NCBI GenBank assembly: GCA_938036435.1
Contig: CALHPU010000007.1
Location: 1 to 64,000, forward strand
DNA length: 64,000 nucleotides
DNA from: an uncultured Pirellulaceae bacterium
GTDB taxonomy: Bacteria > Planctomycetota > Planctomycetia > Pirellulales > Pirellulaceae
Reading direction: 5' to 3'
Shown: one piece after another, positions 8,452 to 11,178 of the stretch
Layout of the letters: each line of letters starts with the position of its first letter
Numbering within the stretch: the first letter of the stretch is position 1
Program-made: the position numbers and the translations under genes
Notes under the pieces: generated by a model
Seen by the model: the letters and a program-made list of their open reading frames with translations, nothing else
What the model was told of the DNA's origin: nothing
Database searches by the model: none

Positions 8452-9345
8452 ATGAAATGCCCAAAGCCCCTTTTTGCGTTCATGTTCATTTTAATGCTGA
8501 CCTGCAACCTGAGCGCGCAGGAAGCATCTCCTGAGAAAACTGACGAGTCAAAATCTGCAATCGCAGATTTGTTGTCTGATGAGAACCAAGAGCAGGAATC
8601 GTCGCCGGAGGCCGAAGAATCTGCGACCGAAGAATTAGCGACCGAAGAATTAGCCGAAGATGATGCGGCTGATGAGGATGAAGGGTCTGATGAGGATGAA
8701 GGGTCTGATGAGGATGAAGGGTCTGATGAGGAAGTCGCTGTTGACGATGAAGGAGAAGCTGTACAGAACGAGGACCCAACGGACCAGTACAACAATTCTC
8801 CAATTGTAATTAGAGTGAACGAAGCTGGCGAAATGGTTGGTCAGGCTCGAGCGTCTGTCAGCGGAAACTGGATGCCAGTGGAAGCGAACATTGCTCTGGT
8901 CAGCAATGGTGTTCTACTGAACAAAATTGTTGCTGACGAAGACGGTTCGTTTGCATTCCCTAACATTTCTCCGGGCAGCTACAACGTTTACGGGACAGCT
9001 TCTAGTTACTGCGGACAGCGAAGCGTCACAGTAATTTCCGACAACGGTTGCTGTGATAGTTGTAGTCTGGGTTTGACTCAGGATTCTAATAACGCATGTT
9101 ACTCGGCTCTAACTTCGGCTCCCGCTGCGACCTTCTCTGAGGGGATTGGTTTCGGCGGAGGGTTCTCCGCAGGTGCACCAATCTATTCCGGAGGATTTGC
9201 CGGCGGTGGAGGATTTGCTGGTGCTGGTGCCGGAGGAGCGGCCGGCGGATTGTCTGGATTGCGGCTTTTGGCGGTCGGTGGAATTGTTACCGCGATTGCC
9301 GTCGGTGATGGTGATGAGGATGACGAGGTCAGCCCAAGCAACTAG
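8452..9345 (+). CDS. Secreted acidic-repeat protein with carboxypeptidase-regulatory-like domain
   Basis: The N-terminus is a signal peptide of about 23 residues ending LSAQ. A very acidic region rich in Glu and Asp (about residues 25-115) follows, with three exact DEDEGS units. After it comes a domain of about 70 residues with the pattern expected of a carboxypeptidase-regulatory-like beta sandwich (DEDGSFAFPNISPGSYNVYG). A Cys-rich patch (CGQR, CCDSC) and a Gly/Ala-rich C-terminal section with a hydrophobic stretch near LRLLAVGGIVTAIAV complete it. The final stretch may anchor the protein in a membrane. An exported structural or surface role is inferred; no enzyme signature is seen. A second protein at 47785-49494 has a similar secreted beta-sandwich layout. 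Confidence 0.75.
   Translation: MKCPKPLFAFMFILMLTCNLSAQEASPEKTDESKSAIADLLSDENQEQESSPEAEESATEELATEELAEDDAADEDEGSDEDEGSDEDEGSDEEVAVDDEGEAVQNEDPTDQYNNSPIVIRVNEAGEMVGQARASVSGNWMPVEANIALVSNGVLLNKIVADEDGSFAFPNISPGSYNVYGTASSYCGQRSVTVISDNGCCDSCSLGLTQDSNNACYSALTSAPAATFSEGIGFGGGFSAGAPIYSGGFAGGGGFAGAGAGGAAGGLSGLRLLAVGGIVTAIAVGDGDEDDEVSPSN
8671..8730 (+). repeat. 18-bp coding tandem repeat (three copies)
   Basis: GATGAGGATGAAGGGTCT is repeated perfectly at 8671-8688, 8689-8706 and 8707-8724 and continues into GATGAG. It encodes Asp-Glu-Asp-Glu-Gly-Ser. Such exact coding repeats are prone to copy-number change. Confidence 0.95.
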
Positions 9346-10588: not shown

Positions 10589-10824
10589 GAATGGTAAGGT
10601 TTCGCTTTTGGGGTCCCTTAGATCGATTGTAATTTGGTGTTATTTTCCAACGCTTGATCCCGTGTTGGCCCGCGAAATTCAAAGGAAACCGGTAGTTTTA
10701 GAGTTTTCGTAGCTCTTTAAAAGGATTTTTGGGTTGGTAAGGCAAAACTATTTCGTTTAAACTTTGGGGCTCAAAAGCACGATTTTAGCAAAAATTGAGA
10801 ATTCAAATACAGGAGAGTGAACAA

Positions 10825-10914
10825 GTGGGAACGAAACGGACCGGTAAAGGTCGTCGTAAAGTTGGTCGAAAAAAGCGTCGTATGCGAGCCAAGATTCGGC
10901 ACCGTAAGAAATAG
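10825..10914 (+). CDS. 29-residue highly basic protein, probable small ribosomal protein
   Basis: A GTG at 10825 follows an AGGAG ribosome site (10811-10815) at 9-bp spacing and opens a 29-codon frame ending at TAG 10912-10914. A strong intrinsic terminator lies about 100 bases downstream. About two thirds of the residues are Lys, Arg or His. The pattern (GRKKRRMRAKIRHRKK at the end) resembles the tiny AURKAIP1/COX24-type (bS22-like) ribosomal proteins known from other phyla. The frame is too short for usual gene finders. The independent ribosome site, stop and terminator support a real gene. The ribosomal identity is inference. Confidence 0.75.
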   Translation: MGTKRTGKGRRKVGRKKRRMRAKIRHRKK

Positions 10915-11010
10915 GTTGTTTTTCTTACCATCGTGAGGATGGCTTTCAGGACCGATGTTCCCCGAGTGTGGATTTCTTCGGACTCTCGGATAGAAATAGA
11001 ACTACACAAC

Positions 11011-11048
11011 AAAAGCGTGGCGTTGATATCAGCGCCATGCTTTTTTTT
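11011..11048 (+). terminator. Intrinsic terminator after the 29-residue basic gene
   Basis: A 10-bp stem (11015-11024 with 11031-11040, including G-U pairs) and a 6-base loop is followed by eight T at 11041-11048. The preceding AAAA allows some function for the converging gene as well. Confidence 0.85.
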
Positions 11049-11178
11049 GTCTGACTGTCACATTTGCTATAGGCAATTAGTATTTCGGCACAACTCGATT
11101 TTCGGGGTAGGTTATTTGCTAGAGGAAAACCTGCCCCACGAGAGCACGTCTATTCGAAGAATAAATTGTGACGAGAGA

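Follow-up and report, generated by a model that had tools for sequence, protein, structure and literature searches.

A conserved gene for a 29-residue basic protein in Planctomycetota, a candidate ribosomal mini-protein

The locus raises two questions: whether an open frame of 29 codons is a real gene, and whether its very basic product belongs to the bS22 (AURKAIP1/COX24) proteins of the small ribosomal subunit, which an earlier note on this DNA had found it to resemble. The window below is the whole stretch of 64,000 nucleotides that was analysed. The features are the following.

10756-10772, plus strand: TTTAAACTTTGGGGCTC block, possibly the -10 and discriminator region of a promoter, for the most part retained in the closest six loci (L001-L006)
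10811-10815, plus strand: AGGAG ribosome-binding site, with 9 nt between AGGAG and GTG
10825-10914, plus strand: gene of the 29-residue basic protein, GTG start and TAG stop, with conservation and protein-level selection
11011-11048, plus strand: intrinsic terminator with a 15-pair stem, a 4-nt loop and T8

The frame and its flanks

The frame translates as MGTKRTGKGRRKVGRKKRRMRAKIRHRKK, where 17 lysines and arginines and one histidine make up 62% of the 29 residues, and acidic residues are absent. The protein is hence very basic, as had been claimed, the share of Lys/Arg/His being slightly lower than the "about two thirds" given earlier. The window has 1256 start-to-stop frames that are 24-45 residues long (each nested start counted separately), and this is the sole one with at least 60% K/R/H; a chance origin is excluded mainly because the frame is conserved. 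The GTG start, the AGGAG at nine-base spacing and the clean stop reported earlier all agree with the coordinates. There is a longer in-frame alternative start, TTG at 10795; the similarity of the relatives begins at the GTG and not at this upstream codon. The long frames on either side, of 380 and 488 residues, are both on the minus strand, so the gene is probably transcribed alone. Elsewhere in the window (8452-9345), a frame of 297 residues has tandem acidic repeats (GSDEDE), a signal-like N-terminal stretch and a glycine-rich C-terminal part.

The terminator described in the earlier note is real and ends in T8, its stem being longer than the 10 bp first given: the hairpin (11011-11044) has 15 pairs and a 4-nt loop, the eight-T run occupies 11041-11048, and the fold of 11005-11052 has an energy of -24.9 kcal/mol, with a z of -6.6 relative to 200 shuffled sequences. 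It lies about 96-97 nt past the stop codon, with no same-direction gene in between. Most of the six closest loci keep the terminator, the stem sequence changing on both sides; in L003 its position has no T5 run. In the 96-nt stretch between gene and hairpin (10915-11010), the block GACCGATGTTCCCCGAGT is partly kept in L002, L003 and L006, and is not kept in L001, L004 and L005.

On the upstream side, the TTTAAACTTTGGGGCTC block is not kept in loci more distant than the closest six, and a scan with the sigma-70 consensus gave no promoter match near the gene. As a promoter motif shared across the genome the block was rejected, since it occurs free of mismatches only here, with 9 sites in all versus 26 for the reversed control; sites with three mismatches are no commoner in the genome than in the control.

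Conservation within the class and beyond

The earlier note had taken the frame for a real short gene and named its conservation in related genomes as the check. The protein is found in 38 of the 40 nearest genomes (E<1e-6, 75-97% identical, the window's own genome included), the two misses being G023, which is 71% complete, and G031. In the phylum samples, same-class carriers number 39 of 40 (392 genomes) and 37 of 38 (384 genomes) among the matches listed, on the assumption that no same-class miss lies beyond them; the same genome, G404, is the miss in both, and G299 was dropped from the matches of the larger sample as it was read as chance. A looser repeat search of G023, G031 and G404 returned no copy of the 29-residue protein, and no bS22 was found in these three. 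Thus, 10825-10914 is a real gene. The opposite outcome, a terminator kept without the coding sequence, was absent: in loci more distant than the closest relatives, the coding sequence can still be recognised and the terminator cannot. The gene is likely essential.

For the analysis of codons, 112 class-type loci, some of them repeating a genome, yielded 92 distinct sequences. Over codons 2-28 the mean pairwise differences at codon positions 1, 2 and 3 were 3.34, 1.97 and 16.14, respectively, and in 300 sampled pairs the residue-altering share of changed codons was 0.188 versus 0.816 for random changes; the loci were picked by protein similarity and protein pattern, which biases the set to few residue changes but has no bearing on the near-saturated third positions. 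The excess of differences at third codon positions shows that the protein is under selection.

A Shine-Dalgarno-like 4-mer precedes 111 of the 112 class-type loci. Their starts are 61 GTG, 45 ATG and 6 TTG, and the 30 nearest loci have 28 GTG and 2 TTG. In family f18 all 19 loci begin with ATG and the protein is the same; G029, a genome of the window's order, also has ATG. The use of GTG or TTG versus ATG in front of the same protein possibly reflects tuned translation.

Conserved neighbours were not found beyond small groups of loci: the commonest sense-strand neighbour occurs in 13 of 97 loci, and a neighbour cluster of 23 loci consists mostly of frames antisense to the gene itself. Since the neighbourhood is not conserved, the function of the gene is its own. 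The gene is under selection at the protein level and retained across the class and beyond, with no tie to a neighbour gene.

Close copies (27 loci) lie on contigs named Rhodopirellula, Aporhodopirellula, Neorhodopirellula, Rubripirellula (class Planctomycetia, order Pirellulales) and Planctomicrobium, and on those of unclassified Pirellulales and Planctomycetaceae. One class-type copy (L119) is on a contig labelled Candidatus Kuenenia stuttgartiensis, which may be mis-binned.

Other classes were reached with a profile holding one divergent row, and MAKPRRRRKVGSKKRKARWKVRHKIG is an example of the first relatives from these classes. In a second class, that of G166, which we would guess to be Phycisphaerae, 55 of 198 genomes match at E<=1.5e-5. 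Eleven weaker matches from families f119 and f122 all carry PRRRRK[VI]GSKKR, and a wider profile adds families f64, f84, f30 and f90; one of the relatives found with it, MASGKKTGRGRRKIGSKKRRARRRRRKKRGK, has an N-terminus like that of the window's class and a core like that of the second class. The relatives are 24-31 residues long and share the core RRK[VIL]G[SRQ]KKR, from which a few sequences depart, for instance with Q as the third variable residue; not every family has the C-terminal RH.

In a sample of 294 genomes of the phylum we observed 41 matches at E<=0.05, from which G263 (chance), G150 and G257 were removed to leave 38 accepted carriers. As 253 of the 294 genomes have no match at this threshold, we do not claim presence throughout the phylum. 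Candidates L130-L141 and L229-L232 were dismissed as chance, and L142, L143 and L226-L228 also stand outside the accepted set. On viral contigs, none of 490 pattern matches was confirmed as a relative.

Family models and known ribosomal proteins

Neither Pfam nor NCBIfam gave a meaningful match for the window protein or four relatives. The sole Pfam match, Apelin, has E 0.58 and 0.14, falls well short of the cut-off and was discarded. A comparison with the sequences of PDB chains gave one irrelevant match (E 1.3) and otherwise none; the best Rfam match had E 0.46 and 18.9 bits versus a gathering score of 58.7; and six core strings of the protein gave no hit in 5.39 million open papers searched in full text. 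The protein is best described as belonging to a new planctomycete family of mini-proteins that are ribosomal-protein-like and may work like bS22 or eL41.

In size and charge the protein is bS22-like (29 residues and 62% K/R/H, versus about 30 residues and about 55-65% basic residues given for bS22 in PMC10085706). Taken as membership, the likeness to AURKAIP1/COX24 was not supported: PF08213 and NF047430 do not match the window protein, the K-H-K motif is missing, and the COX24-type profile scores at chance (p 0.80). Failure with the two models is not decisive in itself, because they also miss the bS22 of Flavobacterium and Borrelia, proven by cryo-EM. The K-H-K motif is absent from 30 of 30 rows of the family alignment (A10) and is present in rows of the bS22 alignments (A5 and A9). 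The hhalign probabilities of the family versus bS22 are 5.6, 2.9 and 4.9% (2.9-4.9% for the Flavobacterium/Borrelia type), and that between the two accepted bS22 types is 81%.

With sequence shuffles, four of five Flavobacterium-type bS22 gave p 0.008-0.024, Borrelia 0.38 and three COX24-type bS22 0.14-0.70; this test is weak, as the accepted COX24-type profile itself has p 0.10 versus Flavobacterium bS22, and the Flavobacterium-type profile only p 0.34 versus that of M. smegmatis. An earlier version of the shuffling gave 0.008 for Flavobacterium bS22, the range for ten further bS22 sequences being 0.12-0.80. With shuffled columns, p was 0.03 for the Flavobacterium type, 0.80 for the COX24 type and 0.20 for both together, versus 0.003 when the two bS22 types were compared with each other as a control; the broader profile gave 0.13 and 0.79 for the Flavobacterium and COX24 types, respectively. 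These values are suggestive of a weak similarity to Flavobacterium-type bS22. The AURKAIP1/COX24 (bS22) label is thus not established, and filing the protein as a bS22 member would be unwarranted on present evidence.

Other small ribosomal proteins gave the following shuffle values with the window family: eL41, 0.15 (0.19 with the broader profile); aL41, 0.24; bL34, 0.51; bL36, 0.95; and bTHX, 0.95. In the window's own genome there is no COX24_C, and no bTHX above the cut-off (best E 0.21). Of ten genomes searched for bTHX (PF17070), one, G248, has it (E 4.8e-10) beside a member of the mini-protein family, the other nine showing none over the cut-off. This true bTHX (L242:1501-1650) has a long C-terminal tail.

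Genuine bS22 does occur in the phylum: two types, COX24-like and Flavobacterium-like (L078-L087, L144-L149), are found in different families of it. The COX24 type exceeds the cut-off in 10 of 294 genomes and the Flavobacterium type occurs in 6 of 376, where six of the 12 matches at E<=0.1 have E<=1.2e-6 and were read as real. Most of the genomes compared show neither bS22 nor the planctomycete mini-protein. Between the 38 carriers of the family and the 16 bS22 genomes no overlap was observed among 294 genomes, with 2.1 expected (P 0.10), assuming that both counts over 294 genomes come from one draw and that it contains the six Flavobacterium-type genomes. The non-overlap is not significant; it fits a replacement of one protein by the other and does not prove it.

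Proposed role and comparison with known systems

The size, charge and near-invariance of the protein are those of a core ribosomal mini-protein. In the preferred reading, the gene would be transcribed alone, ending at its own terminator, and would encode a 29-residue structural ribosomal protein that binds rRNA. Binding to the ribosome we consider probable, and we infer an association with the small subunit. A basic peptide without acidic residues could run between helices of the rRNA, most likely in the pocket between h27, h44 and h45, which bS22, mS38 and eL41 fill in other lineages; there it would brace the neck and the decoding region and make contact with the large subunit. For this particular site the chances seem about even. 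We also propose, tentatively and at slightly less than even chances, that Planctomycetota have a ribosomal protein of their own, hitherto undescribed, 24-31 residues long with the core RRKxGxKKR and ancestral to several of the classes, which either is a third independent filler of the bS22/mS38/eL41 pocket or occupies a new site, and which has been overlooked for its length and composition.

Several other explanations may be considered. The protein could be a new type of ribosomal protein that has no relationship to bS22 or eL41 and is bound elsewhere on either subunit; conservation, size and charge would suit this, and the links of the broadest profile to bS22 and eL41 are all non-significant, but some specific similarity to Flavobacterium-type bS22 and the lack of co-occurrence with bS22 in the phylum genomes compared make it rather unlikely. 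Less probable again is an RNA- or DNA-binding protein acting outside the ribosome, such as an RNA chaperone, an assembly factor or a nucleoid peptide. Basic composition alone would fit such a protein, and the C-terminus varies between families around a constant core, as might be the case if a free tail followed a core that binds RNA; near-invariance across the class at a length of 29 residues would, however, be typical of a buried rRNA-binding peptide.

A diverged bTHX (bS31), likewise a short basic protein of the small subunit, is highly improbable: the length, the charge, an MG start with basic residues after it and the lack of bTHX above the cut-off in the window's own genome would agree with it, whereas the sequences show no similarity, the Pfam scan has no Thx (PF17070) match for the protein, and G248 holds a true bTHX together with a member of the mini-protein family. 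Equally improbable is a leader peptide or an sRNA transcript open by chance, which the stretch of about 97 nt and the strong terminator after the frame might suggest, but which is at odds with the concentration of differences at third codon positions, the conservation of nucleotides outside the frame in the closest relatives only, the lack of an Rfam match near the gathering score, and the lack of a same-direction gene before the terminator to lead.

If the protein is ribosomal, as we prefer to think, it would be an extra component of the planctomycete ribosome, for which no structure appeared among the papers listed. In 2020 the h27/h44/h45 pocket was said to be empty in bacteria except for actinobacterial bS22, and eL41, bS22 and mS38 were placed at the same site (PMC7005279); a further text puts bS22 and eL41 there and proposes the name uS22 (PMC10085706). 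A ribosomal role would then suggest that the tiny protein filling this pocket differs between phyla. Whatever its role, this is a class-wide gene unrecognised by the family models used for naming proteins.

One close counterpart is the Flavobacterium/Borrelia type of bS22 (PDB 7jil, 9i5v, 8fmw), which is likewise of 28-30 residues, very basic and stand-alone, has RH-K-K near the C-terminus, and is missed by Pfam and NCBIfam. The Borrelia protein, too, was unannotated and has a GUG start; it contains 61% Lys/Arg, lies in a pocket formed by h2, h27, h44 and h45 and touches H68, and similar proteins were expected in other bacteria (PMC10618245). With the bS22/mS38/AURKAIP1-COX24 type (PF08213, NF047430) the planctomycete protein shares length, charge and possibly the site, but it is recognised by neither model and all profile tests are at chance. 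The central motif is KHK or HK in the two bS22 types compared and KKK in M. smegmatis, whereas the planctomycete protein has RRKxGxKKR instead. The bacterial ribosomal protein bTHX (bS31) is similarly basic, with about 27 residues, but differs in having no sequence similarity. Finally, eL41/aL41 (also eS32) is again a short basic peptide of the small-subunit pocket, and KKRRMRAKIR of the planctomycete protein resembles both KKGRMRWKWI of aL41 and the human start MRAKWR; however, the planctomycete protein ends ten residues past the M of this motif, whereas eL41 continues as a helix.
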